A DNA stretch of 64,000 nucleotides, from positions 7,238,322 to 7,302,321 of the forward strand of contig NZ_CP036273.1 in NCBI RefSeq assembly GCF_007747215.1, written 5' to 3'. Under the pieces are notes generated by a model. The model did no database searches. It was not told the origin of the DNA and saw only the letters and a list, made by a program, of their open reading frames with translations. A program made the position numbers and the translations under genes. The stretch is from Urbifossiella limnaea (lineage in GTDB: Bacteria > Planctomycetota > Planctomycetia > Gemmatales > Gemmataceae). Numbering within the stretch: the first letter of the stretch is position 1; each line of letters opens with the position of its first letter. Positions 25,367 through 42,423 of this stretch are shown piece after piece.

Positions 25367-25375
25367 CGGGTTTTG

Positions 25376-25419
25376 CCGCTTGCGGCGTAGCGGCGTACAC
25401 GCCGCTACGCCGCAAGCGG
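25376..25419. terminator. Bidirectional terminator palindrome, 21-bp perfect arms
   Basis: 25376-25396 and 25399-25419 are perfect complements with a 2-base gap (CCGCTTGCGGCG core). It lies between two convergent stops and is preceded by TTTTG on one side. It belongs to the same CCGCTTGCGGCG family as 44796-44835. Confidence 0.75.
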
Positions 25420-25425
25420 TGGAAA

Positions 25426-26379: not shown

Positions 26380-26467
26380 GGCGACTCACTTCCGTGTGGT
26401 CGCGGGCCGAACGCGGCCCGGGGGGCGGGAGTATCCGCCGCCCGCGCCGCGGGTGTCAAGCCCGGTG

Positions 26468-27835
26468 TCACGGCTTCGGAATCTGGATGGGCACGATGCT
26501 CTCGTGCAGGTAGTGGCTGGCGTTCTCCGCGGCCCGCGGGTCGGCCGCCTGGAAGCGCATCCCCATGAGCAACCGCCGCGTCGTGTGCAGGGCCGGGTCG
26601 GTCGGGCCGTCGAACTGGCCGACCGTCACCATGCTGCCGTTGCGGTGGTGCAGCACGAACGCCTCCAGCCCGAGCGGCGTCCCGTCCTGCCGCTTCATCT
26701 CGCGCAGCCCCTTCGCCATCTGCTCGGCGGCCTCGGCCCCGGCGGCCATCGCGTCGCCGCCCTTCGGCGTGGCGAACAGCCGGATGCCGACACTTTCTTC
26801 GTCGCGGGTCTGCACCCGCACCGGCGCGTTGAACGCCTTCACGCCGAGCGTCCACGTCTTCGTGGCCCGCAGCAGGTTGTACGGCCGGCCCTCGTTCAGC
26901 CGCACGATGAACGGGTCGAGCTGCGACACCGTGCCCGGCGCCGGCAGCTGCCGCGGGATCGTCGGGTTGGCGACCACCATGGCCTGCCCGTAGGGGCTGA
27001 GGAACGTCTTCTCGATCGTGGCCTTGCCGTCCGAGCCCTGCTTGGCAATGGCCCCGCCGTCGAGCAGCCGCGTGTCCGACGGCATCGGCCAGGCCTTCAC
27101 CTTGGCCAGCGCCCGCACGGCCTCGTCCTCGGTGCGGTACCCGCCGACCACGACGCCGATCTGGTCGCGGTAGTTGAACGACTTGTACCGCAGCGTGTGC
27201 TCGGGGTCGAGGAACGTCATGCTGTTCAGCTCGGCCTTCTGGCGGAAGTCGTTGACGCGGGTGGCGAACTCGGCGGCCTTGCGGCGGGCGTCGGCGAGCG
27301 CCTGCGCCTCGGCCTTGCGCTCCTCCGAGATGTGCTCGTACAGGTAGACGCCGAGCCCCTTGGTCTGCGGCAGGCGGCGGATCTCGTCGGCCAGCCCCTC
27401 GGCCAGCTGGCGGGCGGTGAGGCCGGGGTCGGCGGCGCTCGGCCGGGCGGGTCGGCTGTAGCTGCGAACGAGGATGACGAACGGCCCGTGCTCCGGTCGC
27501 AGCAGCCACGGGTGGTCGGCCGGCAGCGCGGTGGGAATGTTCAGCGGCTCGGCCGGCGCCGCGGTCGGCGTGGGGGTGAGGATCGGCGGCGCCCCGGGGG
27601 GCGTCGTCGGGGCGAGCTTGGGGGCCGGGGTAAAGCCGGGGGGCGCGGGGGCGGGGGTAAAGCCGGGGGGCGCGGGGGCGGGGGTAAAGCCGCCGACCGG
27701 GGGGACGTAGCCGCCGACGGGCGGGGCCGCCTTCGGGGCGGCGGGCGTGCCGACGCGGTCGGCGGCGAACTGCGCGACGGCCGCGGAGCCGAACAGCCCG
27801 GCGGCGCCGAGCCCGAGCACGAGCTTGCGGAGCAT
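26468..27835 (-). CDS. Exported hypothetical protein with Pro-rich repeats
   Basis: 455 aa from ATG 27835. A signal peptide (MLRKLVLGLGAAGLFGSAAVAQ) is followed by a Pro/Ala/Gly-rich region with two copies of PGFTPAPAP (27-bp DNA repeats at 27627-27692). The main domain runs from about residue 115: FVILVRSYSRPA, LADEIRRLPQTKGLGVYLYEH and VVVGGYRTEDEAVRALAKVKAWPMP suggest SPOR-like alpha/beta repeats that bind or sense envelope components, and the last part is uncharacterised. It is downstream of the ceramidase gene on the same strand after 107 bp. Function unknown. Confidence 0.65.
   Translation of the reverse strand: MLRKLVLGLGAAGLFGSAAVAQFAADRVGTPAAPKAAPPVGGYVPPVGGFTPAPAPPGFTPAPAPPGFTPAPKLAPTTPPGAPPILTPTPTAAPAEPLNIPTALPADHPWLLRPEHGPFVILVRSYSRPARPSAADPGLTARQLAEGLADEIRRLPQTKGLGVYLYEHISEERKAEAQALADARRKAAEFATRVNDFRQKAELNSMTFLDPEHTLRYKSFNYRDQIGVVVGGYRTEDEAVRALAKVKAWPMPSDTRLLDGGAIAKQGSDGKATIEKTFLSPYGQAMVVANPTIPRQLPAPGTVSQLDPFIVRLNEGRPYNLLRATKTWTLGVKAFNAPVRVQTRDEESVGIRLFATPKGGDAMAAGAEAAEQMAKGLREMKRQDGTPLGLEAFVLHHRNGSMVTVGQFDGPTDPALHTTRRLLMGMRFQAADPRAAENASHYLHESIVPIQIPKP
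27627..27692. repeat. 27-bp tandem repeat within a coding region
   Basis: Two perfect 27-bp units (27627-27653, 27654-27680) and a 12-bp partial unit. They encode the 9-residue repeat PGFTPAPAP of the exported protein, keeping the frame. Length polymorphism between strains is likely. Confidence 0.85.
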
Positions 27836-27942
27836 CTTCCGCCCCCCTTCTGCGACGAACGGTTCCCCGAGAGGGCGTCGGCCATACCCGCGCCGGCCGG
27901 CAGGTGCCAGGGGAAAATTGGGAAACCGCTCAAGTCCCGCCG

Positions 27943-29280
27943 TCACTTCGCCCCGACCTGCCGGCGTACCTCCGCCACCACCCGCTCCTCGACCTCCGGC
28001 CCCCACACCGACGGCAGCCCGTAGTACACCATCGACGTGGCCCCCTCGTACCCGCCCTCTCGCAGCACCCGCGCCGACGGGACGTACGCCATCACGTCGT
28101 TCGCGTACCCCGCCACCCACAGCCCGGCGCCCAGCTCGCGCTTCAGCCGCAGCGAATAATCCACCACCACCTCGCCGCCCAGCAGCACCCAGGTCACGCG
28201 GCCGAGCTTCCAGGTTTGAACGGGGTACGGGTAGTCGGCCGGGATGCCGCGCGGGGTGTCGAGTTGCTTCAGCAGGTGCCGCGCCCGCGCCGCCTCGTAC
28301 TTGTTCGGGTTCTCGGCCTGCTTCAGCAGCGCCTCGCGGGACGGGATTTCGTGCAGGGGGAGCGGCACCTCGCGGTAGGCCGCCGCCGCCCCGGCGCCGA
28401 CCGCCGGCATCGGCTTCGCCAGCACCGCGTCCACGGCGTCGGCCAGCTGCTTGCCGTAGCCGCGGGCCAGTTCCACCGTGCGCCGCGGCAGCGGGTTCTG
28501 GTCGGCGCCGCACCCGGCCCAGAACAACGCCACCGCCCCGGGGTGCGCCTTCTCCAGCTCCAGCTGCGCGAACCCGGGGTAGTCGGCGCACCACTTCTGC
28601 GCGCTCAGCACGGTGGCGTGGCAGGCGTAGCCGAAGACGACGCCCTTGAGCTTCCCCTGCGCGTCGCGGGCGGCCAGGACGGGCACGTCGTGGTCGGTCG
28701 GCCCCTTCAGCTTGCCCGCCTCGCGGAGCGCGGGCACGTCGGCCTCCTTGTTCTCGCGCCGGTTCACCGCGAACGTCGCGCTGCCGACGCCGGCCGACAG
28801 CGTGACCGGGCCGAGCGCGGCGACGGCGCCGTCGACGGCCTTCAACACCTTGCCGGGAAGGGCGTCGGTGTAGGCGTCCACGAGGCGGGCGTGGTGGTCG
28901 TCGAGGAAGTACATGGAGCGAAGGTTCTTGCCGACGACCGGCCCGCAGTGCGTGTGCGACACGGCCAGCGCCACGGCCTCGCGCGGCAGCCGGTGCTTGT
29001 CCGTGATCGCGGTCACGACTTGCCGTGAGGTGTCGCGGTCGATGCCGACGAGGTCGAGGGTGACCAAGCAGAACGTCTTGCCGTCCGGGGCGCGGAGGAC
29101 GGCGGCCTTGGCGAACAGGTCGGTCTCGGTGCCGTCGGCGGGGGCGGTGCGGCTGGCGTACCCGGACATCCACATCGGTTCGGCGGGCGTGATCCGCTGG
29201 GCGGCGAACCCGGCGTGCCAGCCGTCTTGTGCGGATGCGGGGGCGGCGAGCACGAGGAGTGCCAGAAGAGCGCGAGTCAT
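27943..29280 (-). CDS. Neutral/alkaline non-lysosomal ceramidase-like secreted protein
   Basis: 445 aa, signal peptide (LLALLVLAAPASAQ). Features of the neutral ceramidase N-terminal domain: AGFAAQRITPAEPMWMSGYASR, LDLVGI, SHTHCGPVVG (zinc-binding His pair), FGYACHATVLS and FWAGCGADQNP. It is shorter than full ceramidases (about 670 aa), lacking their C-terminal Ig-like domain, as is usual for planctomycete members. Probably a secreted amidase or hydrolase with zinc; the true substrate is unknown. It lies 106 bp after panE on the same strand. Confidence 0.85.
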   Translation of the reverse strand: MTRALLALLVLAAPASAQDGWHAGFAAQRITPAEPMWMSGYASRTAPADGTETDLFAKAAVLRAPDGKTFCLVTLDLVGIDRDTSRQVVTAITDKHRLPREAVALAVSHTHCGPVVGKNLRSMYFLDDHHARLVDAYTDALPGKVLKAVDGAVAALGPVTLSAGVGSATFAVNRRENKEADVPALREAGKLKGPTDHDVPVLAARDAQGKLKGVVFGYACHATVLSAQKWCADYPGFAQLELEKAHPGAVALFWAGCGADQNPLPRRTVELARGYGKQLADAVDAVLAKPMPAVGAGAAAAYREVPLPLHEIPSREALLKQAENPNKYEAARARHLLKQLDTPRGIPADYPYPVQTWKLGRVTWVLLGGEVVVDYSLRLKRELGAGLWVAGYANDVMAYVPSARVLREGGYEGATSMVYYGLPSVWGPEVEERVVAEVRRQVGAK

Positions 29281-29386
29281 GGCGACCTGTGGGGCTGGCG
29301 GGCGTGGGGAACCGGCGGCTATCGTACACGATCCGACGCGCGGCGCGAACCGGCCCGACCGACCCGACCCGACCGGTAGCGGGCCG

Positions 29387-30316
29387 TCACCCCGCCTCGC
29401 GGGCGGCCCGCGCCGCCGCCGCCTTCACCGCGGTGTACGCCAGGCGCAGCAGCGACCGGTCGCCCTCGACCGGGCCGCGGCGCCGCAGCAGGTCGCCGAG
29501 TACGTGGTCGGCCTCCGTCGGGCCGCGCCGCTCCACGTCGCCGAGCATCGAGGCCGTCACCGTCGATTTCGGGTGCGTCAGCCGCTTCACGGCCGCCTCC
29601 CACGGGCCCGGCCGCGGCGCGTGACCCGCCGCCGCCGCGACCGCCCGGCATTCGTCGAGCAGCGCCAGCGTCAGGTCGGCGCCGCCGGCCGCGACCACGT
29701 CGCCGACGGCCGCACGGGTCAGGCACGTCACCGCGGCGAGCGCCGCCAGGAACGTCCACTTCTCCCACAGCTCCTGCACGATGTCGTCGCTGGCGTCGGC
29801 CTCGAACTTCGCCCCCGTCATCGCGGCAAGAATGGCATCGACGCGCGCCGACCGGCCGCCGCCGCGCTCGCCGAAGACGAGCCGGTGCGGGTCGCTGACG
29901 TGGGCGATGCGGCCGGCGTCGTCGCGCTTCGCCGAGATGAAGCACGACCCGCCGAGGACGCGGGCCGGGCCGAAGCGGCCGTCGAGGGCGTCGAGGTGGC
30001 GCAGGCCGTTGAGCAGCGGGATGATCGCCGTGGTCGGCCCGACTGCCGGCGCGAACGCGGTCATGGCGTCGTCCAGGTCGTAGGCCTTGCACGACAGCAG
30101 CACCACGTCGAACGGCGCCCGCAACTCGGCGGCGACGACCGTCGGCGGGGCCGGGATGGCGACGTCGCCGGCGGGGCTGGTGATGACGAGGCCGGTGGCG
30201 GCGAGCGCCTCGGCGCGTGCCGGTCGCACAAGAAAGGTCACATCGCGGCCGGCTTCGAGGAGCCGCCCGCCGAAGTAGCCGCCGACCGCCCCCGCGCCGA
30301 CCACCAGGAATCGCAT
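29387..30316 (-). CDS. panE: 2-dehydropantoate 2-reductase (ketopantoate reductase)
   Basis: 309 aa. The N-terminal Rossmann motif GAGAVGGYFGG (residues 8-18) binds NADPH. LLSCKAYDLDDAM holds the conserved Lys of the family, and PLLNGLRHLDAL and WEKWTFLAALAAVTCL are further signatures. The enzyme makes pantoate for vitamin B5 and coenzyme A. The window also has two later CoA genes at 61633-63031. Members of this family can act on other 2-keto acids. Divergent from the sulfatase gene at 30377 with only 60 bp between. Confidence 0.88.
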   Translation of the reverse strand: MRFLVVGAGAVGGYFGGRLLEAGRDVTFLVRPARAEALAATGLVITSPAGDVAIPAPPTVVAAELRAPFDVVLLSCKAYDLDDAMTAFAPAVGPTTAIIPLLNGLRHLDALDGRFGPARVLGGSCFISAKRDDAGRIAHVSDPHRLVFGERGGGRSARVDAILAAMTGAKFEADASDDIVQELWEKWTFLAALAAVTCLTRAAVGDVVAAGGADLTLALLDECRAVAAAAGHAPRPGPWEAAVKRLTHPKSTVTASMLGDVERRGPTEADHVLGDLLRRRGPVEGDRSLLRLAYTAVKAAAARAAREAG

Positions 30317-30376
30317 CGCGCCGCCCTCCGGAGTCTTCGTTGGTGTAGCGGCTCAACTGGTTCGTAGGCTAGCGAC

Positions 30377-31840
30377 ATGCGCCCTCTCCTTGCCGCCGCC
30401 GCGCTCGCGCTCCTCGCGGGCCCCGCGGCCGCCGCGCCGAACGTACTGTTCGTCGCAATCGACGACCTGAACGACTGGGTGGGCCACTTGCACGGCCACC
30501 CGCAGGCGAGCACCCCGAACCTCGACCGCCTCGCCGCCCGCGGCACCGCGTTCACCAACGCCCACTGCCAGGCGCCGCTGTGCAACCCGTCGCGGACCAG
30601 CCTCCTCACCGGCCGCCGCCCCACCGCCACCGGCGTGTACGGCCTCGCCCCCGGCTTTCGCGCCGCGCCCGCCGCCCGCGGCTGCGTCACGCTGCCGCAG
30701 TCGTTCCTGCGCGCCGGGTACAGCACGTACACCTGCGGGAAAATCTTCCACGACGGCTCCGTCGCCGCGAAGGACCGCCCGGCCGAGTTCGCCGAGTGGG
30801 GGCCGGCTCCCGGCATGGGTCGGCCCAAGGAACGGTTCGCCAAACTGCCCGGCACGCCGCACCCGCTCATGGACTGGGGGCCGTTCCCGGAGCGGGACGC
30901 GGACGCCGCCGACCACCAGATCGCCGACGCGGCGATTGCGGCGCTGAACCGGGCGCCGAAGGACAAACCGTTCTTCGTGGCGTGCGGGTTCCGCCTGCCG
31001 CACGTGCCGTGCTTCGCCCCGCCGGCGTGGTTCGCCAAGTTCCCCGCCGACCGCGTGCAGCTGCCGCCGGTCCGCGCCGACGACCGCGCCGACACGCCGC
31101 GCTTCTCGTGGTACTTGCACTGGAAGCTGCCGGAGCCGCGGCTGGCGACGCTGGAAGCTGCAAACGAGTGGCGGCCGCTCGTGCGCGGGTACCTGGCTTC
31201 GACCGCGTTCATGGATCACCAGCTCGGTCGCGTGCTGGACGCGCTGGAGAAAACGGGCCGGGCGAACGACACGGTCGTGGTGGTGTGGAGCGACCACGGC
31301 TATCACCTCGGCGAGAAGGGGATCACGGGGAAGAACTCGCTGTGGGAGCGCTCGACGCGGGTGCCGCTGGTGTTCGCCGGCCCCGGGGTGAACCGCGGCC
31401 GCTGCGGCCGGCCCGCCGAGCTGCTGGACGTGTACCCGACGCTGCTGGAGCTCGCGGGCCTGCCTGCCCGGACGGACCTGGACGGGTTGTCGCTGGTGCC
31501 GCAGTTGCGGGACGCGGTGGCGCCGCGGGACCGGCCGGCGCTGACGACGCACAACCCCGGAAACCACACGGTGCGCTCCGAGCGCTGGCGCTACATCCGC
31601 TACGCCGACGGCAGCGAGGAGCTGTACGACGCCGTCACCGACCCGAACGAGTGGACGAACCGCGCCGCCGACCCTTCCCTGATCGGCGTGAAGCGCGAGC
31701 TGGCGAAGTGGCTGCCGGCGAAGGAGGAGCCGCACGCCCCCGGCAGCGCCCAGCGGGTGCTCACCTACGACGCCCGCACCGGCGCCGTGACGTGGGAGGG
31801 CACCCCGGTCGGCCGCGACGACCCGGTGCCGACGCCGTGA
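30377..31840 (+). CDS. Secreted sulfatase (iduronate-2-sulfatase-like)
   Basis: 487 aa. A signal peptide (MRPLLAAAALALLAGPAAA) precedes NVLFVAIDDLNDW (metal ligands Asp29/Asp30). The formylglycine site is Cys69 in CNPSRTSLLTGR, a CxPSR signature. SDHGYHLGEKG and the overall layout resemble iduronate-2-sulfatases, many of which occur in planctomycetes. It probably hydrolyses sulfated glycans outside the cytoplasm. It is followed after 55 bp by an HpcH/HpaI aldolase gene on the same strand, a common pairing with sugar-acid catabolism. Confidence 0.92.
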   Translation: MRPLLAAAALALLAGPAAAAPNVLFVAIDDLNDWVGHLHGHPQASTPNLDRLAARGTAFTNAHCQAPLCNPSRTSLLTGRRPTATGVYGLAPGFRAAPAARGCVTLPQSFLRAGYSTYTCGKIFHDGSVAAKDRPAEFAEWGPAPGMGRPKERFAKLPGTPHPLMDWGPFPERDADAADHQIADAAIAALNRAPKDKPFFVACGFRLPHVPCFAPPAWFAKFPADRVQLPPVRADDRADTPRFSWYLHWKLPEPRLATLEAANEWRPLVRGYLASTAFMDHQLGRVLDALEKTGRANDTVVVVWSDHGYHLGEKGITGKNSLWERSTRVPLVFAGPGVNRGRCGRPAELLDVYPTLLELAGLPARTDLDGLSLVPQLRDAVAPRDRPALTTHNPGNHTVRSERWRYIRYADGSEELYDAVTDPNEWTNRAADPSLIGVKRELAKWLPAKEEPHAPGSAQRVLTYDARTGAVTWEGTPVGRDDPVPTP

Positions 31841-31895
31841 GCGGACGGCGGCCGTACCCTATTCACACCCGCCCGCATTCTCCGAGAGCGTTCCC

Positions 31896-32693
31896 ATGCG
31901 CCCGAACTCCGCCAAGCGGCTCCTCCGCGCCGGCCGCCCGGCCGTCGGCACCTGGCTGTCCCTCGGCAGCCCCGTCGCCGCCCGCTTCCTCGCCCGCAGC
32001 GGCTGGGACTACCTGACCGTGGACACCGAGCACAACGCCATCGGCATCGAAGCCACCGCCGCCTGCTTCGCGGCCGTCGCCGACGCCGGCGGCGTGTGCC
32101 TGGCCCGCGTGCCGTCGAACCGCCACGACCACATCAAGCGCGTCCTCGACACCGGCGCCCACGGCGTCGTCGTGCCGATGGTAAACACCCGCGCGGAGGC
32201 CGAGGCCGCCGTGTCCGCGTGCCTGTACCCGCCGAAGGGCACCCGCAGTGTCGGCGGCGCCACCCACGCCCTGAACTTCGCCGCCACCCCCGCCGACTAC
32301 TACGCCAAGGCCGACGACGAAATCCTGGTCGTGCTCCAGTGCGAGCACATCGACGCCGTCCGCAACTTCCGCGACGTGTACAGCGTGCCGGGCGTGGACG
32401 CCGTGTTCGTGGGGCCGAACGACCTGATGGCGAGCATGCGCGCCGCCGACGGCACGCCGCCGACGCCCGAGGTGTTCAAGCAAGCGCTGGCCGAGATCCT
32501 CGCCGGCTGCAAGGAGCTGGGCATCCCGGCGGGGATTCACACGTTCTCGGTGGAGGAGGCGAAGCAGCGGATCGCGGACGGCTGGCAGTTCATCGCCGTC
32601 GGCAGCGAGCTGAAGCTGATGCTGGACGCGGCGAAGAAGGTGACCGACGGCCTCGGCCTGGGCAAGGCGGCGGGCGAGCTGGCGAAGTACTGA
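31896..32693 (+). CDS. HpcH/HpaI-family aldolase
   Basis: 265 aa. The TIM-barrel class II aldolase signatures are present: PAVGTWLSLGSPVAARFLARSG, LTVDTEHN (metal or base residues), HGVVVPMVNT, QCEHIDAV with the Mg-binding Glu, VFVGPNDL with a metal-binding Asp, and GIHTFSVEEA. The reaction is a reversible aldol cleavage of 2-keto-3-deoxy acids such as 2-dehydro-3-deoxyglucarate, giving pyruvate and a semialdehyde. The position after a sulfatase gene suggests breakdown of sugar acids. The exact substrate is not deducible. Confidence 0.88.
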   Translation: MRPNSAKRLLRAGRPAVGTWLSLGSPVAARFLARSGWDYLTVDTEHNAIGIEATAACFAAVADAGGVCLARVPSNRHDHIKRVLDTGAHGVVVPMVNTRAEAEAAVSACLYPPKGTRSVGGATHALNFAATPADYYAKADDEILVVLQCEHIDAVRNFRDVYSVPGVDAVFVGPNDLMASMRAADGTPPTPEVFKQALAEILAGCKELGIPAGIHTFSVEEAKQRIADGWQFIAVGSELKLMLDAAKKVTDGLGLGKAAGELAKY

Positions 32694-32710
32694 TGCACGC
32701 GCGGAGAACG

Positions 32711-32809
32711 AAGAGTTTTGACAGGATAACAGGATGAAGCAGGATGCCGAACCAAAGCCTTGTCTTGGATCGGCATCCTGCTTCATCCTGTTATCCTGTC
32801 AAAACTCTT
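32711..32809. repeat. Perfect 40-bp inverted repeat
   Basis: Arms 32711-32750 and 32770-32809 are perfect reverse complements with a 19-base loop; the core is CAGGATAACAGGATGAAGC. AT content is much higher than in the surrounding DNA. It lies 18 bp after the aldolase stop and before the end of the small-gene operon, and can terminate both transcripts. Its composition suggests an imported repeat. Confidence 0.93.
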
Positions 32810-32895
32810 CTCCTCACCAAACGCACGGGGCCGGGCCGCTCGCACGGCCCGGCCCCGGAGGGCGGGAGGCGCTTCCTCCCCCGCGCCCTCGCGTC

Positions 32896-33021
32896 TCACT
32901 CGCCGGGCCAGCCCAGCGCCGCCCCGAGCGTCAGCACCGCCGTCAGGATTGGCTCGCCCGTCGCGGTCGCGGCGGCGATCACCCGCACGGCGTCCAGGTA
33001 CATCTCGGTTGCTGCGATCAT
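32896..33021 (-). CDS. Small hypothetical protein (41 aa)
   Basis: ATG at 33021 (MIAATEMYLDAVRV) preceded by a strong Shine-Dalgarno GAGGAGG about 7 bases upstream, which is unusual in this window and supports translation. The peptide is mostly one amphipathic/hydrophobic helix (ATGEPILTAVLTLGAALGW) and ends in GE. It starts 11 bp after the stop of the 108-aa gene, so it is the last gene of a three-gene operon. Function unknown; size and hydrophobicity would suit a membrane-associated small protein. Confidence 0.6.
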   Translation of the reverse strand: MIAATEMYLDAVRVIAAATATGEPILTAVLTLGAALGWPGE

Positions 33022-33032
33022 CGGAAGCCTCC

Positions 33033-33359
33033 TCACACGCCGAGCGGGGCGAACGTGCCGCGCAGGAACTCCAGCGGTCGCTGGTCGCCGACGAACGTGG
33101 CGTCGGCCGGGTGGAACAGCGCCTGCTTCAGCTTCGCCCGCTGCTCCAGCACCGCCAGCTTCTCCGGGCTGCCGGGGGCGGCGCTGGTCGGGGCGTCGGG
33201 GAGCGGGGCGTTGCCGGTGAAGTTGCCGACGCCGCGGCGGGCGTACTTGCTGGTGGACGGGTACTGCTCCTTCACGCCCGGGGTGTAGTAGCAGCTCCAG
33301 CACAGCCCGCGCGGGCGGTTCACCTTCGACTTCGAGCAGTGGCGGCAGCAGGCGGTCAT
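33033..33359 (-). CDS. Small treble-clef/zinc-ribbon protein (Gemmata-type)
   Basis: 108 aa. The N-terminus CCRHCSKSKVNRPRGLCWSC holds Cys pairs typical of a treble-clef zinc finger, followed by YYTPGVKEQYPSTSKYARRG. This start is familiar to me from small genes scattered in Gemmata-like genomes, where it is often found next to the 141-aa family that also precedes it here. Possibly nucleic-acid binding. Second gene of a three-gene operon. Function unknown. Confidence 0.72.
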   Translation of the reverse strand: MTACCRHCSKSKVNRPRGLCWSCYYTPGVKEQYPSTSKYARRGVGNFTGNAPLPDAPTSAAPGSPEKLAVLEQRAKLKQALFHPADATFVGDQRPLEFLRGTFAPLGV

Positions 33360-33416
33360 GGGCGGGCTCCGGCACGGGTTCGGGGGGAATTCGGTTGCGA
33401 CGCAGGTGTACGGGTG

Positions 33417-33842
33417 TTAAGCTGCCACGGCGTCCAGTTCGGCGAGCTCCTCGACCGGGTTGCGCTCGGCGAGGGCGAGTTCGACCTCGGCCAGAAGTTC
33501 GCGGCGCATCTGGGCGCGGGGCGTGTCGTCGAACCAGTTGAGGAACCACCGGCAGGCGGCGGGCTCGCCGAGCCGCTGGTCGGCCTCGAAGCAGACGCGG
33601 GCGAAGAACTCTTCGACCTGCCCGACGGTGTCGAGCGTGTCGCCCTGCCAGCCGCAGTAGCCGAGCGCGCAGGCGGCCTCGACGGGCCAGTCCTGGACGC
33701 ACATGAGCGGGGGCGGGGTGGTAGTGCTCCCCTGGGTGAGTCGCGGGTCGTCGAGCAGGAGTGCGTCGCGGAGGGCTTCGAGGCCGGTGGTGGAGAGGAC
33801 CGGAGCGAACCCATCCCGCCACACGAGACGCCAGCTTTCCAT
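33417..33842 (-). CDS. Hypothetical protein of a Gemmata-type accessory family (141 aa)
   Basis: 141 aa, first gene of the small operon. Characteristic stretches are WRLVWRDGFAPVLS, GSTTTPPPLMCVQDWPVEAACA, GYCGWQGD and AACRWFLNWFDDTPRAQMRREL, conserved as I recall in planctomycetes only. It is probably a soluble all-alpha protein. A strong sigma70-like promoter with an operator-like palindrome is about 75 bp upstream. Neighbours suggest an accessory gene cassette. Function unknown. Confidence 0.72.
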   Translation of the reverse strand: MESWRLVWRDGFAPVLSTTGLEALRDALLLDDPRLTQGSTTTPPPLMCVQDWPVEAACALGYCGWQGDTLDTVGQVEEFFARVCFEADQRLGEPAACRWFLNWFDDTPRAQMRRELLAEVELALAERNPVEELAELDAVAA

Positions 33843-33919
33843 GGTCGTTCCTCGGTCGAAGGGCGTGCGTCATGCTCCGCGGTGAGGGTTGAAACTCCTC
33901 AGTAGCGGCCGACACACAA

Positions 33920-33948
33920 GTTATACGCATGTTCAGTATGCGTGTCAA
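33920..33948 (-). promoter_or_regulatory. Consensus sigma70 promoter with palindromic operator in the spacer
   Basis: Read on the minus strand: TTGACA (33948-33943), a 17-bp spacer, TATAAC (33925-33920). The spacer is CGCATACTGAACATGCG, whose ends, with flanking bases, form the palindrome ACGCAT-7-ATGCGT. A repressor bound here would block RNA polymerase directly. The start of transcription should lie near 33913, about 70 bases before the ATG at 33842. This AT-rich, near-perfect promoter stands out in the window. Confidence 0.75.
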
Positions 33949-34134
33949 ACGGAATTCCGGCGACTTTTTCGAGTTCGAGGCGGATTTCGCCTTTTGGTGG
34001 CGGGCGAGACGGGATTAGTAGCCGATTGTGGGCGGCATAAGAGCAGTTAAATAGACATTGTTAGACGTGACGAGATTTTGCTCCGCTGTCGGTGCTTGGT
34101 TTGGCGCCAGATCAACCCGCGACCGGGAGGGAGA

Positions 34135-34575
34135 ATGGCAGACGACGTGCGGGTTAACGAGAACGATTTGGAGCTGGACGAGGACATGCTGCTCTTGGCC
34201 GGGGTGCCGTTCTCGGGAGTCGGCTTCGACCTGTACGAGGACGGATCACTTCGCAGTGAGTCGCCGTTCCGCGACGGGTTTAGAGACGGGCTGTGCCGGG
34301 AGTGGCACCCGAATGGTCGGCTCCGGTGTGAGTGGATTGCCGCCCAGGGCACCATAACGGGGGTGAAGACGGAGTGGCACCCGGGGGGCGCGCTCAAGGC
34401 CGTCGGGCAGTACGAGTACGGGGTCGAGATTGAGTCCCGGGAGTGGGACGACGCTGGCGACCTGATCTCCTACTGGCAGATCGATGAAAAAAGCGCGATC
34501 TACGCCTACGTGGTGGGGTTGCGGGAGAGAGGCGGCCTCCGCTACCCCTGGATCACGCCCCCGGAAACCGAATGA
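34135..34575 (+). CDS. MORN/YwqK-like repeat protein
   Basis: 146 aa from ATG 34135, with GGGAGGGAG just upstream as ribosome-binding site. The middle shows MORN-like repeats (GLCREWHPNGRLRCEWIAAQG, TEWHPGGALKAVGQYEYG) as in YwqK-type proteins, which are often annotated as antitoxins, though without proof of function. Rich in acidic residues at the N-terminus (ENDLELDEDMLLLAG). It stands alone on the plus strand and diverges from the small operon to the left. It may be an immunity or accessory gene of the same island. Confidence 0.65.
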   Translation: MADDVRVNENDLELDEDMLLLAGVPFSGVGFDLYEDGSLRSESPFRDGFRDGLCREWHPNGRLRCEWIAAQGTITGVKTEWHPGGALKAVGQYEYGVEIESREWDDAGDLISYWQIDEKSAIYAYVVGLRERGGLRYPWITPPETE

Positions 34576-34622
34576 GCCACGGCGCGTCGCCGCTGTCCGG
34601 TTCGTCCCGCTTCACCCCGCCG

Positions 34623-34757
34623 AACCCCCACGTCGATCCGCAACTCGTGGTCCGCGTGGATACAGCACACGACGTTGTGACAGACCACCTTCGCCAGCAC
34701 CTCGTTCGCCATCGCGGTACTCGTCTTCCATCGCGGGCAAAGCACATCCGGCTCGTT
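34623..34757 (-). pseudogene. Transposase C-terminal remnant
   Basis: On the minus strand the frame reads KTSTAMANEVLAKVVCHNVV followed by CCIHADHELRID, the typical C-terminal segment of a DDE transposase of the type with NEVL-x-K-x2-CHN. Nothing upstream resembles the catalytic part, and the frame continues into unrelated sequence. It is a decayed fragment of an insertion sequence. It accounts for the only recognisable content of the 317-bp gap 34576-34892; the rest shows no feature. Confidence 0.5.
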
Positions 34758-34892
34758 TGACTACCCAAAGGCGTACCTTACACTTGTTCACCATCGCCCC
34801 GTCCGCCCCGTCCCGCGGCCCCGCCCGGCCCCTACAATCCCTCCGACCCGCACCCCGGCCGCCCCTCACCCCGGCCCCCACGGAGCCACCCC

Positions 34893-37055
34893 ATGCGCAC
34901 CGCCCGACGGGCGACCGTCGCCCTCGTCGCCGCCGTTCTGCTCGCCGTCCCGGCGACGTCCCAGGAGAGGAAGTTGAGTTACCCGGATACCAAGAAGGGC
35001 AGCACCACCGACACCTACCACGGCACCACCGTCGGCGACCCCTACCGCTGGCTCGAAGACGACGTCCGCAAGTCGCCGGAGGTCGCCAGTTGGGTCGAGG
35101 CCGAGAACAAGGTGTCCGACGCCTTCCTCAAGGACATTCCGCAGCGCGAGGCCATCCGCAAGCGCATCACCGACCTGTGGAACTACGAGAAGATCTCGGC
35201 CCCGTCGAAGGTCGGCGGCCGGTACTTCTTCAGCAAGAACGACGGCCTTCAGAACCAGAGCGTCTTCTACACCCAGGACACGCTCGACGGCCCCGCGCGG
35301 ATGCTCCTCGACCCCAACACCTGGAGCAAGGACGGCACCGTCGCCCTCTCCGGCATGGCGATCAGCGACGACGCCAAGTACCTCGCCTTCGGCAAGGCCG
35401 CGGCCGGCTCCGACTGGAACACGTGGCACGTCCTTGAAGTCGCCACCGGCAAGCTCCTCGACGACAAACTGGAGTGGGTGAAGTTCAGCGGCGCGGCGTG
35501 GACCCTCGACGGCAAGGGCTTCTACTACAGCCGCTTCCCCGAGCCGCAGAAGGACGCCGCGTTCCAGGCGCTCAACGAGAACCAGACCCTCTACTACCAC
35601 CGCCTCGGCACGCCCCAGAGCGACGACGTGATGGTGTACCGCACGCCCGAGCACCCGCGCTGGACCGTCGGCGGCACCGTGTCCGAGGACGGCAAGTACC
35701 TCGTCATCAGCGTCGGCGACGGCACCACCAGCCGCAAGTCGCGCGTCGTCTACCGCGACCTCACGGACGCGAAGGCGCAGCCGGTCGAGCTCGTCGCCAA
35801 CCACAAGAACAAGTTCTCGTTCCTCGGCAACGACGGCGGGCTGTTCTACTTCCTCACCGACTACAACGCGCCGAAGTACCAGGTGGTGGCGATCGACACC
35901 AAGAGCCCGGACCCGAAGGGGTGGAAGACGATCGTCGCCGAGGCCGCGGAGGTGCTCGAAGGGGCGGACCTGTTCGGCAACCAGTTCGTGTGCAGCTACC
36001 TGAAGGACGCCCGGACCGTCGTGAAGGTGATCGACATGGCCGGGAAGCTCGTCCGCGAGGTGGACCTGCCGGGCATCGGCACCGCCGGCGGGTTCAACGG
36101 CAAGCGGACCGACACCGAGACGTTCTACTCGTTCAGCAGCTTCGCCACGCCGCCGAGCACCTACAAGTACGACCTGGCCACGGGCAAGAGCACGCTGCTG
36201 CGGCAGGCGCAGGTGAAGTTCGACCCGAGCGCCTACGAGGTGAAGCAGGTGTTCGTGCCGAGCAAGGACGGCACGAAGGTGCCGATGTTCGTGGCCCACA
36301 AGAAGGGGCTGAAGCTCGACGGCACGAACCCGACGCTGCTGTACGGCTACGGCGGCTTCAACATCTCGCTGACGCCCGGCTTCTCGGTGAGCCGGCTGAT
36401 GTGGATGGAGATGGGCGGCGTGTTCGCGGTGGCGAACCTGCGCGGCGGCGGCGAGTACGGCGACGACTGGCACCGCGCCGGCACGAAGACGAAGAAGCAG
36501 AACGTGTTCGACGACTTCATCGCGGCCGGCGAGTGGCTCGTCAAGGAGAAGTACACGAGCCCGAAGAAGCTGGCGATCCAGGGCGGCAGCAACGGCGGGC
36601 TACTGGTGGGGGCGTGCATGACGCAGCGGCCGGACCTGTACGGCGCGTGCCTGCCGGCGGTGGGGGTGATGGACATGCTGCGGTTCCAGAAGTTCACCGC
36701 CGGCCGCTTCTGGACCGACGACTACGGCAGCAGCGAGAGCGAGAACCCGGAGGAGTTCAAGGCGCTGCTGGCGTACAGCCCGTACCACACGCTGCTGCGG
36801 AGCGGCCCGCGCGACTACCCGGCGACGCTGGTGACGACGGCCGACACCGACGACCGGGTGGTGCCGGGTCACAGCTTCAAGTTCGCGGCGGCCTTGCAGG
36901 CGATGCAGAAGGGCTCGGCGCCGGTGCTGATCCGCATCGAGACGAAGGCCGGCCACGGGGCCGGGAAGCCGACGGCCAAAGTGATCGAGGAGGTGGCCGA
37001 CCAGTGGGCGTTCCTGGTGCGCACGCTCGACTTCCGCCCGACGATCCGGGAGTGA
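34893..37055 (+). CDS. Prolyl oligopeptidase (family S9A)
   Basis: 720 aa. A signal peptide (VALVAAVLLAVPATSQ) precedes the N-terminal seven-bladed propeller (starting YHGTTVGDPYRWLEDD) and a C-terminal alpha/beta-hydrolase. Catalytic residues: Ser566 in GGSNGGLLVG, an Asp at 653-654 in TDDRVVPGH, and His688 in AGHGAGKP. The enzyme cleaves short peptides after Pro; the signal peptide implies export to the periplasm-like space. It is isolated, with no operon partner, and followed by a 35-bp-arm inverted repeat. Confidence 0.93.
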   Translation: MRTARRATVALVAAVLLAVPATSQERKLSYPDTKKGSTTDTYHGTTVGDPYRWLEDDVRKSPEVASWVEAENKVSDAFLKDIPQREAIRKRITDLWNYEKISAPSKVGGRYFFSKNDGLQNQSVFYTQDTLDGPARMLLDPNTWSKDGTVALSGMAISDDAKYLAFGKAAAGSDWNTWHVLEVATGKLLDDKLEWVKFSGAAWTLDGKGFYYSRFPEPQKDAAFQALNENQTLYYHRLGTPQSDDVMVYRTPEHPRWTVGGTVSEDGKYLVISVGDGTTSRKSRVVYRDLTDAKAQPVELVANHKNKFSFLGNDGGLFYFLTDYNAPKYQVVAIDTKSPDPKGWKTIVAEAAEVLEGADLFGNQFVCSYLKDARTVVKVIDMAGKLVREVDLPGIGTAGGFNGKRTDTETFYSFSSFATPPSTYKYDLATGKSTLLRQAQVKFDPSAYEVKQVFVPSKDGTKVPMFVAHKKGLKLDGTNPTLLYGYGGFNISLTPGFSVSRLMWMEMGGVFAVANLRGGGEYGDDWHRAGTKTKKQNVFDDFIAAGEWLVKEKYTSPKKLAIQGGSNGGLLVGACMTQRPDLYGACLPAVGVMDMLRFQKFTAGRFWTDDYGSSESENPEEFKALLAYSPYHTLLRSGPRDYPATLVTTADTDDRVVPGHSFKFAAALQAMQKGSAPVLIRIETKAGHGAGKPTAKVIEEVADQWAFLVRTLDFRPTIRE

Positions 37056-37065
37056 GGTAACGCCA

Positions 37066-37150
37066 CCGAGCGGGGTCGCGTCAGCGCCCCGTGCGAACCC
37101 ATAACTTCGAGTTGCGGGTTCGCACGGGGCGCTGACGCGACCCCGCTCGG
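37066..37150. repeat. Perfect 35-bp inverted repeat
   Basis: Arms 37066-37100 and 37116-37150 are perfect complements with a 15-base loop. It begins 10 bp after the prolyl oligopeptidase stop. Its right edge abuts GGAGGTGAT (about 37150-37158), an excellent ribosome-binding site of the next gene. It could end the first transcript or fold upstream of the second start. Confidence 0.92.
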
Positions 37151-37163
37151 GAGGTGATCCGCC

Positions 37164-37808
37164 ATGAATGAAGCCGACTGGATGGTGGCGACCAATCCGA
37201 CCCCGATGCTCACGTTTCTTCGAGGCAAGTTAGGCGATCGGAAGTTGCGGCTGCTGGGAGTAGCGATCGCCCGCGCATCCTGGGACCGCATCGAGGACGA
37301 TCGCACCCGCAGAGCCGTTCTGACGGCAGAAGCGTTCGCCGACGGGCACGTAGACGCCTCGGCACTGGAGGCCGTCGTGAACGACGCGTGGGACGTGCGA
37401 GACGAGTTGTGGGACGCCGGGCCCGCGGACCACGATGACCGGGTGTGGTTGGCTGAGGCGGCAGCCTTGACCGCCTCGGTGTACGAGTGGCGAAACACGT
37501 TTACCGGGTCCGGTCCGTTCGACGGGTATCCTTTCCGGCTCCCCTCACCTGCCCACTGCGACCTGATCCGCGACGTCTTCGGCAACCCGTTCGCTCCCGT
37601 CGTGTTCGATGCGAGTTGGCGGACGGAGGCGGTCGTCGGCCTGGCGCGCGGGATGTACGAGAGCCGCGACTTCGCCACGATGCCGGTCCTGGCCGACGCG
37701 CTGGAGGACGCCGGCTGCGCGAACGCGGACGTGCTCGCCCACTGCCGCGACGGCGGCCCGCACGTCCGCGGCTGCTGGGTGGTCGATCTGGTGCTCGGAA
37801 AAGCCTGA
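37164..37808 (+). CDS. Hypothetical protein, Gemmata-type family with conserved C-terminal LHGPG-like motif region
   Basis: 214 aa from ATG 37164 with a strong GGAGGTGAT ribosome site 7 bases before it. Blocks I recognise from many Gemmata proteins: FLRGKLGDRKLRLLGVAIARASWDRIEDDRTR, CDLIRDVFGNPFAPV, ASWRTEAVVGLARGMYESRDFATMPVLADALEDAGC and HVRGCWVVDLVLGKA. Some relatives carry an additional repeat domain. The family is expanded in Gemmataceae; biochemical function unknown. The stop is 28 bp before the Uma2 start, so they may be co-transcribed. Confidence 0.8.
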   Translation: MNEADWMVATNPTPMLTFLRGKLGDRKLRLLGVAIARASWDRIEDDRTRRAVLTAEAFADGHVDASALEAVVNDAWDVRDELWDAGPADHDDRVWLAEAAALTASVYEWRNTFTGSGPFDGYPFRLPSPAHCDLIRDVFGNPFAPVVFDASWRTEAVVGLARGMYESRDFATMPVLADALEDAGCANADVLAHCRDGGPHVRGCWVVDLVLGKA

Positions 37809-37836
37809 CGCTACCCTGACCGACGGAGGACACCCG

Positions 37837-38457
37837 ATGACCGCGTCCGTCGCGACCCCGCCGCCCGCCCCACTCCGCCCTGGCCCCTCCCCGGCCCACG
37901 GCCCGGCCGCGAAGGTGTGGACCGTGGACCAGTTCCACTACCTCGGCGACCTCGGGATGTTCGAGGGCCGGCGGGCGATGCTCATCCACGGGGAGATCAT
38001 CGAGGAGGGGCCGATGAACCCGCCGCACGCCATTGCCGGTGAGAAGGCCGAGGACGCCGTCCGCGCGGCGTTCGGCCCCGGGTGGCGGGTGCGGGTGCAC
38101 AAGCCGCTCGTCTTCGGGCTGACGATCGACCCCGGGCCCGACGTGTCCGTCGTCCGTGGGGCGCCGACCCTCGGGCCGCACCCGACCACGGCCGAGCTGG
38201 TGGTCGAGATCAGCGACTCGTCACTCGGGTACGACCTCACGACGAAGGCGGAACTGTACGCGACCGCCGGGATCGCCGACTACTGGGTGCTCGACGTGGC
38301 CGGCGGCCGGCTCCACGTCCTCCGTGACCCGGCCCCACTGCCGACCGGCCTCGGCGGCACCGCGTACCGCACCCACCTCGACCTCGGCTCCGCGGATGTC
38401 GTGACCCCCCTCGCCGCGCCGGGTGCCGCCGTTCGCGTCGCGGACCTGCTGCCGTAG
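37837..38457 (+). CDS. Uma2-family (DUF820) putative endonuclease
   Basis: 206 aa from ATG 37837, preceded by GGAGGA. Uma2 core: VDQFHYLGDLGMFEGRRAMLIHGEIIEEGPM, DPGPDVSVVRGAP, TTAELVVEISDSSLGYDLTTKAELYATAGIADYWVLDV, with the PD-(D/E)XK-like Asp and Glu residues. First 30 residues are Pro/Ala-rich. It abuts the stop of proB on the other strand (no gap). Function unknown; see also the copy at 17348. Confidence 0.88.
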   Translation: MTASVATPPPAPLRPGPSPAHGPAAKVWTVDQFHYLGDLGMFEGRRAMLIHGEIIEEGPMNPPHAIAGEKAEDAVRAAFGPGWRVRVHKPLVFGLTIDPGPDVSVVRGAPTLGPHPTTAELVVEISDSSLGYDLTTKAELYATAGIADYWVLDVAGGRLHVLRDPAPLPTGLGGTAYRTHLDLGSADVVTPLAAPGAAVRVADLLP

Positions 38458-39573
38458 TCAGCCCGGCGCCGTCACCACCAGGTTGTCGCGGTGAATCAAC
38501 TCGGCGTAGGGTGCGCCGGCCTTGCCGCGGAGTCGCAGCGCGTCGGCCGCAGCGTAGTTCGTCAGCCCGCGGGCCACCTCCCGGCCGGCCGCGTCGCACA
38601 CCGACACCACGTCCCCCTTGCGGAACTCGCCGCCCACCCCCACCACCCCCACCGGCAACAAGCTCTTCCCCAACTCCACCACCGCCCGCACGGCGCCGGC
38701 GTCGATCGTGAGCGTGCCCACCGGCCGGGCCGTGTAGCCGACCCAGCGCTTCCACGCGGGGATGTCGTCGCGGTGCGGCAGGAACAGCGTCCCCACCGGC
38801 TCCGCCGCGAACACGCGGTCGAGGATGCCGTCGAGCGAGCCGTTCGCCATCACCACCGCCACGCCGGCGTCGGTCGCCACCCGGGCCGCCTTCAGCTTGC
38901 TCCGCATCCCGCCGGTGCCGAGGTCGCTCTTGCTGGCGCCGGCCATGTCCGTCACCGCGTGGTCGATGTGCGGCACCGTCGCCACCAGTTCCGCCGCCGG
39001 GTCGGTGCGCGGGTCGGCGGAGTAGAGGCCGTCCACGTTCGTCAGCAGCACCAGCAGCGGGGCGCGGAGCAGGTTCGACACCATCGCCGCGAGGTGGTCG
39101 TTGTCGCCGAACTTGATCTCGGCGACGGACACGGTGTCGTTCTCGTTGATGATCGGCAGCGCGCCGTACTCGAACAGCGTGCGGACGGTGTTGCGGGCGT
39201 TCAGGTAGCGGGCGCGGCTGTCGAAGTCGCCGGCGGTGAGAAGGATCTGTGCGGTGTGGACGCCGTGGGGGGCGAAGCTCTCCTGGTACAGCTGCATCAG
39301 CGCCGACTGGCCGACGGCGGCGCAGGCTTGGAGTTGCGCGAGGTCGGTGGGGCGCTTGCCGAGGCCGAGCTTGCCGACGCCGGCGCCGATGGCCCCGGAC
39401 GTGACCAGCACGACGCGCCGGCCGGCGGTGCGGACGCGGTGCAGCTGGTCGGCGAGGGCGCGGATGCGGCCGGCGTCGAGCCGACCGGCGGGGTCGGCGA
39501 GGACGTTGGTGCCGACCTTCACGACGACCGTGTGCGCCCGCTCAATGACATCCTGTCGGACCGGATCGGCCAT
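38458..39573 (-). CDS. proB: Glutamate 5-kinase with PUA domain
   Basis: 371 aa from ATG 39573; the open frame extends upstream but the homologous start is MADPVRQDVIERAHTVVVKVGTNVL. Amino-acid-kinase domain with KVGTNVL, VTSGAIGAGVGKLG, INENDTVSV and FGDNDHLAAMVS (substrate and nucleotide loops), GTGGMRSKLKAA, and a C-terminal PUA domain (about residues 285-371, GTLTIDAGAVRAVVEL). It phosphorylates glutamate in the first step of proline synthesis and is normally feedback-inhibited by proline. proA is not in the window. Confidence 0.95.
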   Translation of the reverse strand: MADPVRQDVIERAHTVVVKVGTNVLADPAGRLDAGRIRALADQLHRVRTAGRRVVLVTSGAIGAGVGKLGLGKRPTDLAQLQACAAVGQSALMQLYQESFAPHGVHTAQILLTAGDFDSRARYLNARNTVRTLFEYGALPIINENDTVSVAEIKFGDNDHLAAMVSNLLRAPLLVLLTNVDGLYSADPRTDPAAELVATVPHIDHAVTDMAGASKSDLGTGGMRSKLKAARVATDAGVAVVMANGSLDGILDRVFAAEPVGTLFLPHRDDIPAWKRWVGYTARPVGTLTIDAGAVRAVVELGKSLLPVGVVGVGGEFRKGDVVSVCDAAGREVARGLTNYAAADALRLRGKAGAPYAELIHRDNLVVTAPG

Positions 39574-39630
39574 GCCCGCGAACCCCCGTGGAGACGGGGG
39601 TAGCTTATCGCGGCGGGCGGAAAATGACGC

Positions 39631-39857
39631 GACCCCGCGGGCACAGGGCACCCGCGGGATCGCTTCTATCTGGGTAGCCGGCTTAACGGACAACCCGTTA
39701 CGTAGCCGCTAAGCTAGCCGGCCCTTCTGAACCTGGTCGCAACAACTCACAGGACCACCCCCTTTGTGAAAGGCCACGCCAGGGGCGACCCGCGTACCAG
39801 TGCGGACCGCCCGAGGCCTTTTGCCCGTCCCGCCACGGCCGCGGGACATCCGACCGA
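39631..39857 (-). ncRNA. Candidate structured non-coding RNA upstream of proB
   Basis: The 453-bp gap 39574-40026 has no convincing frame but several stems on the minus strand: a hairpin GUCCCGC/GCGGGAC near the 5' end, AAAGGCC/GGCCUUU (39815-39821 with 39769-39775), a bipartite hairpin at 39677-39722 with inner stem UAACGG/CCGUUA, and a terminator-like stem at 39631-39661 followed by a short U run. A TATAGT box at 39869-39864 could be its -10. I checked by eye for tmRNA, SRP, RNase P and common riboswitch signatures and found none. It could be an independent RNA or the proB leader. Confidence 0.28.
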
Positions 39858-40026
39858 CACCCCACTATAGACACACACCCGCCCCGCGGGGAACAGAAAA
39901 TCGCGCCCTCCAACCAAGTCGCAAACGTCCGCGGCGGTTCCACTGGTCGGCACCGCCAACGCCGGCAACAATAGCGCGGTTCCGTCTGACGGGCGCCGCC
40001 GCCCGCCACCCCGCCGAGGACAATCG

Positions 40027-40833
40027 ATGTTCACCACCCTCGCCCTGGCCGCGGCCACGCTCGCCCCGGCCCAGCCGCCGGCCGGCAGCCTCCAGCTCAA
40101 CAACGTCCGCCTCACCACCGGCGAGCTCGGCCCGGCCCGCAAGGACGCCAAGCTCCTCCCCGGCGACGTGCTGTTCATCGCCTTCGACATCGAGGGCCTC
40201 ACCATCGCGCCGGACGGCCAGACCGTCTACACGGTCGGCATGGAGGTGACCGACGCGGCCAACAAGCTGCTGTTCAAGCAGGACCCGCGCGAGAGCCGCG
40301 ACACCGTGCCGCTCCGCGGCGGCAAGATGCCGGCGCGGGCGTTCGTCACCATCGGCAACGACACCCCCGCCGGGGCGTACACCTGCAAGCTCACCGTCAC
40401 CGACCCGAAGGCGAAGGCGACGAACAGCTTCACCGTGAAGTTCGAGGTGCTGAAGGCGGACTTCGGCCTGGTGGCGATCAACCCGACGCGGGACGTGCGC
40501 GGCACGATCGTGGCGCCGGCGGCCGGCTCGGTGGGCGAGACGCTGTGGGTGCAGTTCACCGTCGTCGGGTTCGGCCGCGACGCCCAGAAGAAGCAGCCGA
40601 ACGTGGAGTTCACGCTGGAGTTCTTCGACGAGAAGGGGGTGGCGACGCTCGGCCAGCCGATCCGCGACGCGCAGACCGGCGGGGTGGACGAGAAGGACGC
40701 GGTGTTCGGCCAGCACGTGCCGGTGTTCCTGAGCCGGCCGGGGCGGTTCACGGTGCGGGTGTCGGCGCTCGACAAGGTGACCAACAAGCGGGCGCAGTTC
40801 GAGCTGCCGATCCGCGTCGACCCGCCGCAGTGA
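40027..40833 (+). CDS. Exported beta-sandwich protein, hypothetical
   Basis: 268 aa. A short signal peptide (MFTTLALAAATLAPAQ) is followed by two beta-sandwich-like domains: LQLNNVRLTTGELGPARKDAKLLPGDVLFIAFDIEGL (about 20-150), then VAINPTRDVRGTIVAPAAGSVGETLWVQF to the end. Alternating hydrophobic strands and lack of Cys suggest an envelope adhesion or structural protein. No family recognised with certainty. The repeat hairpin 40839-40916 follows directly. Confidence 0.65.
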   Translation: MFTTLALAAATLAPAQPPAGSLQLNNVRLTTGELGPARKDAKLLPGDVLFIAFDIEGLTIAPDGQTVYTVGMEVTDAANKLLFKQDPRESRDTVPLRGGKMPARAFVTIGNDTPAGAYTCKLTVTDPKAKATNSFTVKFEVLKADFGLVAINPTRDVRGTIVAPAAGSVGETLWVQFTVVGFGRDAQKKQPNVEFTLEFFDEKGVATLGQPIRDAQTGGVDEKDAVFGQHVPVFLSRPGRFTVRVSALDKVTNKRAQFELPIRVDPPQ

Positions 40834-40838
40834 CTTGT

Positions 40839-40916
40839 CGTCATTCGTCATTCGTCATTCGTCATTCGGGACGCGCCCAGTGCCCCCGAATGACGAATGA
40901 CGAATGACGAATGACG
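40839..40916. repeat. Perfect 32-bp hairpin made of GTCATTC heptamers
   Basis: Arms 40839-40870 and 40885-40916 are perfect complements, each a run of four ATTCGTC/GAATGAC heptamers. Loop of 14 bases. The same heptamer occurs at 18831-18855. It follows the exported protein gene by 5 bp and may be its terminator. Both arms are tandem arrays, so they could change length by slippage. Confidence 0.93.
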
Positions 40917-40963
40917 CCCCACCGGGTGCCTACAATTCCCCCACCCACCCCCAGGTGCCCGAA

Positions 40964-41590
40964 ATGAGTCAGCTCGCCGAGCGGATCGCCCAGTTCCGGA
41001 AGATGGCCACCGACGACCCGGAAAACGAACTCGGGCACTTCCGCCTCGGCCAGTTACTCCTGGAGGACGGCCAGCCCGCCGAGGCCGCCAAGTCGTTCGA
41101 GCGCACCCTGGAACTGAGCCCGCAGTTCTCCAAGGTGTACCAGCTGCTCGGCGAGTGCCTCATCAAGCTCGACCAGAAGCCGCGCGCCGCCGAGGTGCTG
41201 ACCACCGGCTGGACCACCGCCGACGAGCGCGGCGACAAGATGCCGCGCGACGCGATGGCGAAGCTGCTGACGCAGATCGGCGCCCCCGTGCCGAAGGCCG
41301 CGGCGCCGACCGCGGTCGCCGACGACGACGGCCCCGACACCGGGTTCCGCTGCCAGCGGCCCGGGTGCATGGAGGGGAAGCGGGCCAAGCAGCTGCCCGC
41401 GCCGCCGGTGCCCGACGCCATCGGCGAGCGCATCCACCAGAACGTCTGCGCCGGCTGCTGGAACCTGTGGTTCAAGGACCTCAGCATCAAGGTCATCAAC
41501 GAGATGCGGCTCGACCTGAGCTCGGAGTTCGGGCACAACGAGTACGACAAGCACATGCGCGAGTTCTTCGGCTTCGAGGAGGCGCCGTGA
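40964..41590 (+). CDS. TPR domain fused to a Fe(2+)-trafficking (YggX-like) domain
   Basis: 208 aa from ATG 40964. Residues 1-85 hold two TPR-like helices (NELGHFRLGQLLLEDGQPAEAAKSFERTLELSPQFSKVYQLLGECL). A Cys cluster C-x-RPGC and CAGCWN follows, and then a segment typical of YggX (about 150-205, INEMRLDLSSEFGHNEYDKHMREFFGF). YggX protects iron-sulfur proteins from oxidative damage. The TPR fusion probably docks it to a partner. The stop overlaps the GTG of the PSP1 gene (GTGA), so the two are coupled. Confidence 0.8.
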   Translation: MSQLAERIAQFRKMATDDPENELGHFRLGQLLLEDGQPAEAAKSFERTLELSPQFSKVYQLLGECLIKLDQKPRAAEVLTTGWTTADERGDKMPRDAMAKLLTQIGAPVPKAAAPTAVADDDGPDTGFRCQRPGCMEGKRAKQLPAPPVPDAIGERIHQNVCAGCWNLWFKDLSIKVINEMRLDLSSEFGHNEYDKHMREFFGFEEAP

Positions 41591-42222: not shown

Positions 42223-42244
42223 CTCGCCACCCGGCTCGGGGCTT

Positions 42245-42384: not shown

Positions 42385-42423
42385 GAAACTCGAACCGATC
42401 GTTCCTTGTAGGAGACCCCTCGT

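Follow-up and report, generated by a model that had tools for sequence, protein, structure and literature searches.

The stretch of the Urbifossiella limnaea chromosome that we analysed (64,000 nucleotides of NZ_CP036273.1, from position 7,238,322 to 7,302,321, hereafter the window) carries two small genes, encoding a 141-residue protein (P141) and a 108-residue zinc-ribbon-like protein (ZF108), that probably constitute a two-gene SOS-regulon operon repressed by LexA acting from elsewhere on the chromosome, a reading to which we give a probability of roughly 0.75. Regulation of this operon appears well supported by a box that is conserved over its promoter throughout the family Gemmataceae and that recurs upstream of lexA, recA and Y-family polymerase genes. 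What the two proteins do can be suggested with less confidence, from the neighbourhoods of their relatives in phages.

A near-consensus promoter and a coincidental palindrome

The operon is headed by a promoter, TTGACA-17-TATAAC on the minus strand, which the original prediction for this DNA had named and which is present exactly (Table 1). A search of the whole 7.8-Mb genome for TTGACA-N16-18-TATAAC returned this single copy, and the other sites found in a promoter scan of positions 25,000-44,000 were weaker, at 9-10 of 12. The AT-rich setting claimed for it was likewise confirmed, with a GC content of 59% in the promoter region versus approximately 68-73% in its surroundings. The gene for P141 starts about 80 bases past the promoter. 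Across 42 distinct homologous promoters that could be parsed, TTGACA, the spacer length (17 bp in 35 of them) and a -10 hexamer of the form TATAAG or TATAAA are maintained. A search of Rfam gave no match near the promoter. Elsewhere in the window, the divergent neighbour of the operon (34135-34575) encodes a MORN_2-like repeat protein that falls below the Pfam cut-off, an almost perfect inverted repeat of 46 bp (GAAGAGTTTTGACAGGATAACAGGATGAAGCAGGATGCCGA...), its loop 9 bp long, lies just 3' of the operon (32710-32810), and two matches to Acido-Lenti-1 RNA (RF01687; 58418-58463 and 58517-58564) are found one on each strand, with about 50 bp between them.

Table 1. Features of the P141-ZF108 operon and its promoter region (window coordinates)
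Feature	Position	Strand	Remarks
-35 hexamer TTGACA	33943..33948	minus	TTGACA in 32/42 homologous promoters
-10 hexamer TATAAC	33920..33925	minus	TATAAG or TATAAA in homologous promoters
Putative LexA-type box TACTGAACATGCGTA	33924..33938	minus	consensus TAGTGNAC-RNRY-GTA; reaches into the -10
Palindrome ACGCAT-N7-ATGCGT of the original prediction	33925..33943		judged a coincidence
Conserved 5'-leader element ACTGAGGAGTT	33893..33903	minus	(A/C)TGAGGAGTT in 30/41 leaders
P141, 141-aa protein, all-helical	33417..33842	minus	AF2 pLDDT 89.6; homologs in 73/95 Gemmataceae genomes
ZF108, 108-aa Cys4 (CxxC...CxxC) zinc-ribbon-like protein, second operon gene	33033..33359	minus	same-strand partner of P141
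41-aa ORF, poorly conserved, lineage-specific addition	32896..33021	minus	GAGGAGG upstream

The palindrome ACGCAT-N7-ATGCGT, which overlies the spacer, had been read as an operator belonging to an accessory cassette, a model in which the repressor would be local. Although the 6+6 palindrome is perfect in this strain, its arms pair at all six positions in this promoter only, while the other parsed homologous promoters pair at 1-5 positions and mostly at 1-3; such a lack of conservation was the prediction's own ground for refutation. Furthermore, the exact palindrome occurs once in the genome, for which reason it was also dropped as a means of finding a regulon, and the operon belongs to the family core rather than to an accessory cassette. 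We accordingly give that model almost no credence and judge the palindrome to be a coincidence of this strain. The broader idea fared better in that an operator does seem to lie in the promoter spacer, where a repressor very probably binds, but the wrong bases had been named.

A LexA-type box is conserved over the spacer and the -10 hexamer

Over the spacer and the -10 hexamer, the motif TAGTGNAC-RNRY-GTA is kept across Gemmataceae P141 promoters, in which we counted 35 distinct boxes. A matrix of 15 columns was derived from these 35 boxes, with P141 promoters as its only source; T and G are invariant at two of the columns (35/35), R/Y preferences mark the centre, and the invariant T, which precedes GNAC, falls outside the requirements of the search pattern. 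The window's own box, TACTGAACATGCGTA, scores 20 bits by this matrix, and 44 of 57 P141 host copies carry a box of at least 11 bits, the matrix having itself been trained on host copies. The symmetric form TAGTGNAC-N4-GTNCACTA was rejected as a regulon finder after it turned up in 2 of 95 genomes, in neither case beside a recognised SOS gene.

Because the box overlaps the -10 and because TATAAG and TTGACA are conserved along with it, one might take it for a mere part of the core promoter, reflecting a preference in the spacer and extended -10 that involves no repressor. We consider this very unlikely for several reasons. Conservation extends to the half-site TAGTGNAC, located upstream of the -10; the orientation of the box with respect to the -10 appears reversed in some divergent homologs (for example TATACTTTTGTACACTA at locus L168) and is also turned round in recA promoters, which fits a protein-binding dyad and not a core promoter element; and the box is rare upstream of control genes.

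The box recurs at many lexA, recA and Y-family polymerase genes of relatives

The likeliest repressor of the operon would be LexA, because the same box is found at lexA, recA and Y-family polymerase genes. When the P141 matrix was run on the regions upstream of these genes in relatives, with a cut-off of at least 11 bits, the box was detected at 11 of 20 lexA genes (Fisher p 1e-10), 6 of 14 recA genes (p 2e-6) and 7 of 24 Y-family polymerase genes (p 6e-6), as compared with 1 of 132 control regions upstream of other long ORFs and 0 of 40 AT-richer controls, though the three sets come from related genomes and the p values overstate independence. In Markov-1 shuffles of each region, 11 of 20 lexA and 7 of 14 recA regions beat all 60 shuffled versions.

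The picture within U. limnaea itself is mixed. Its LexA, which possesses HTH and S24 domains (PF01726, PF00717; G000:C1:2643525), is encoded at approximately 2.64 Mb and the operon lies at approximately 7.27 Mb, in agreement with the claim that a repressor gene is missing beside the operon; a LexA acting in trans would explain this absence. Two imperfect boxes, CTGTACAAGTGTG and ATGGACGCATGTTG, precede lexA and are weak by the P141 matrix, with 4 of 60 shuffles scoring as high, and both Y-family polymerase genes have upstream dyads that can be discerned by eye (TGAACACCCGTTCAC and TATGGACAGGAGTCCACTA); of these two polymerase regions, L153 beats all 60 shuffles and L140 is exceeded by 3 of 60. 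The box was not found upstream of recA, nor in the other three recA regions from the same genus that were tested.

Two more LexA_DNA_bind proteins are encoded in the genome (G000:C1:7590266 and 7684978, with reading frames 266 and 142 aa long). In addition, sites resembling GTGNACANNTGTA are seen in the promoters of several secreted or metabolic genes that appear to be unrelated, so that another regulator may use a site of this related kind. Within the window, the promoter of a prolyl-oligopeptidase-like gene (TTGACT-N16-TACACT, 34757-34792) bears the LexA-box-like GTGAACAAGTGTA on the other strand at 34779-34791, and elsewhere in the genome promoters of the form TTGACN...TACATTTGTNCAC stand ahead of several secreted or metabolic genes (L119-L124). 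Two related genes without an assigned family, L123 and L125 (G000:C1:5643068 and 6490429), have the upstream boxes GTGTACAGGTGTACC and TAGTGTACGCATGTACC and may belong to this regulon as well.

These paralogues, the sites at secreted and metabolic promoters (including that at 34779-34791) and the recA gene without a box are compatible with a scheme in which a different regulator, either a LexA paralogue or a factor with a similar site, recognises the conserved box and in which the operon responds independently of DNA damage. However, the box derived from P141 promoters alone shows enrichment at the lexA, recA and Y-family polymerase genes of relatives, and the metabolic-promoter sites mostly do not have the TAG extension. 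On balance, we regard control of the operon by a different regulator as rather unlikely and favour LexA.

P141 and ZF108 are a core gene pair of Gemmataceae

All three small ORFs that had been described downstream of the promoter are present, at 141, 108 and 41 aa, with the CxxC...CxxC pattern in the 108-aa protein and GAGGAGG ahead of the 41-aa frame. Homologs of P141, at 41-89% identity and usually in single copy, were detected in 73 of 95 Gemmataceae genomes and at 35 loci in further genome contigs. Outside its own genome, no match was obtained among 294 sampled Planctomycetota genomes, and the label 'planctomycete-specific' given to P141 is better narrowed to Gemmataceae-restricted. ZF108 was found in 79 of 95 Gemmataceae genomes, including every genome that bears P141 save one with a fragmentary P141 (G062), and strong ZF108 matches without P141 often lie at a contig edge. 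The two genes are on the same strand, separated by a gap of 1-350 nt, at 78 loci (duplicate records of the same genome counted). This distribution indicates that the pair is part of the Gemmataceae core, at odds with the view of it as an accessory operon. Beyond this genome, the 41-aa ORF was detected in the nearest relative alone (L038), at 73% identity and with 10 synonymous and 11 non-synonymous changes between the codons of the two copies, and the idea that the three genes form a unit was consequently dropped.

Neither protein could be matched to a characterised family. For P141, a Foldseek search of PDB and BFVD gave no match at E<=0.001, the best VIA-align Z score of 3.3 was not informative, and Pfam, NCBIfam, PHROG and PADLOC contained no match. 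Seven residues of ZF108 (C5, C8, C20, C23, H83, P84 and D86) are invariant. ZF108 has no match in Pfam, NCBIfam or PADLOC, with weak and unrelated Pfam matches in members of the family; in PHROG it weakly matches an HNH group (E 0.064) and a group of unknown function (E 0.0015). Its predicted fold is of low confidence (pTM 0.42) and has no PDB match, and profile searches against PDB sequences produced nothing credible.

A conserved element in the leader

Beyond the promoter, the 5' leader contains a conserved element (Table 1). As the 11-mer AMTGAGGAGTT it occurs once in the U. limnaea genome, at the P141 leader, and elsewhere in the genus it exhibits no clear enrichment. It possibly sits in a hairpin: when drawn, this hairpin has 85% of cells paired versus 81% in a shuffle control, with modest covariation, and RNAalifold predicted no hairpin in the leader.

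Relatives of both proteins are found in phages

Relatives of P141 at 49-83% identity are present on 25 IMG/VR contigs, including a pair whose proteins are identical; INPHARED phages gave no P141 match. Among 24 phage P141 copies, no box scores as high as 8 bits; none of the phage copies is directly followed by ZF108, and a ZF108-like match lies nearby in only two contigs. The ORFs nearest to phage P141 match helicase, primase, Prim-Pol, clamp loader, RecE, RecT and Erf families, as well as methyltransferase, UDG and integrase families, and other ORFs match DNA polymerase, thymidylate synthase and a processivity factor; these families are among the 25 most frequent per scan, with genes called by a simple script, and give a picture rather than a count. 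ZF108 relatives occupy 28 other IMG/VR contigs, none shared with P141, where they neighbour terminase, portal, ParB-like and methyltransferase genes. Two Gemmataceae genomes harbour second P141 copies (L276 and L277). These have no box, and an annealing protein of the Rad52 type is encoded a few genes downstream of them, L277 also having a phage integrase nearby; they are probably prophage genes. In a tree of 82 sequences, phage P141 proteins are mixed among host copies, with 19 changes between the two, at least 7 of them forced by well-supported branches, though many forks are unresolved and the tree does not settle the direction of transfer.

The likeness to a phage-type or toxin-like cassette that the original prediction had seen thus holds for the phage part, given that both proteins have relatives in phage contigs, and fails for the toxin-like accessory part, the pair being core to the family. 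A related proposal would make P141 and ZF108 a toxin-antitoxin or abortive-infection pair that DNA damage switches on, with the P141 that phages carry alone serving as an antidote. Two small adjacent genes would suit this scheme, as would phage P141 genes that are never directly followed by ZF108 and that scatter among host copies in the tree. Yet the pair is not patchy in its distribution; phage contigs carry relatives of ZF108 too, albeit never together with P141; the genes around phage P141 serve replication and recombination; searches of toxin and defence families gave no match, an outcome with which an unknown toxin is still compatible; and the small hydrophobic peptide is not kept with the operon. 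We therefore deem a damage-triggered toxin-antitoxin pair unlikely. Since their phage relatives sit among genes for DNA replication, recombination, modification and packaging, P141 and ZF108 may instead assist DNA repair or recombination, or perhaps replication, a role that we consider quite possible while holding more doubt than confidence in it.

Discussion

We propose that in undamaged cells LexA would occupy TACTGAACATGCGTA, which overlaps the -10, and so obstruct RNA polymerase. Once the DNA is damaged, RecA would become active and LexA would cleave itself, whereupon the near-consensus promoter would fire and P141 and ZF108 would be made. A more ambitious version, which we offer only tentatively and hold less probable than the repair or recombination role by itself, is that this core SOS operon of Gemmataceae encodes a new repair or recombination accessory factor from two undescribed families, that phages and hosts have repeatedly exchanged these genes into replication, recombination and packaging modules, and that the leader element (A/C)TGAGGAGTT provides a second, operon-specific level of control.

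LexA boxes of this general type are already known, and it is P141 and ZF108 that are undescribed in the libraries searched. The LexA (SOS) box has the consensus CGAACRNRYGTTCG in Gram-positive bacteria and RGTACNNNDGTWC in cyanobacteria. The Gemmataceae box resembles these in its GNAC-N4-GTNN core with an RNRY centre, in its placement over the core promoter and in being common to lexA, recA and error-prone polymerase genes. It differs in that its left half, TAGTGNAC, is strong while its right half, GTA, is weaker and merges with the -10, and in that the symmetric form is almost absent from the 95 Gemmataceae genomes.

SulA, YneA, SidA and TisB are small effectors under SOS control, and the operon shares with them short genes and a strong promoter with a repressing box, to which LexA would bind here. 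Unlike these effectors, P141 and ZF108 could be assigned to no characterised family from the libraries searched, form a core pair and have phage relatives in DNA metabolism regions. ZF108 is also reminiscent of phage zinc proteins of the HNH-endonuclease type, given its CxxC...RGLCxxC pattern, its weak PHROG match to HNH and the terminase and portal genes near its phage relatives, but no HNH family is significant for it and it has no Pfam match.

According to a 2011 paper (PMC3108266), the E. coli motif is not the one used by LexA in planctomycetes, and we found no LexA-type operator motif for Gemmataceae in the literature searched. The box described here would offer such a motif, as predicted from sequence comparison. 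It also allows two orphan protein families to be named as testable SOS effectors, and the occurrence of both proteins in phages provides a direct handle on their function. Planctomycetes are generally held to lack FtsZ, so the usual targets of SOS division blocks do not apply in these bacteria, and new damage-response proteins, for which P141 and ZF108 are candidates, are of interest for that reason.
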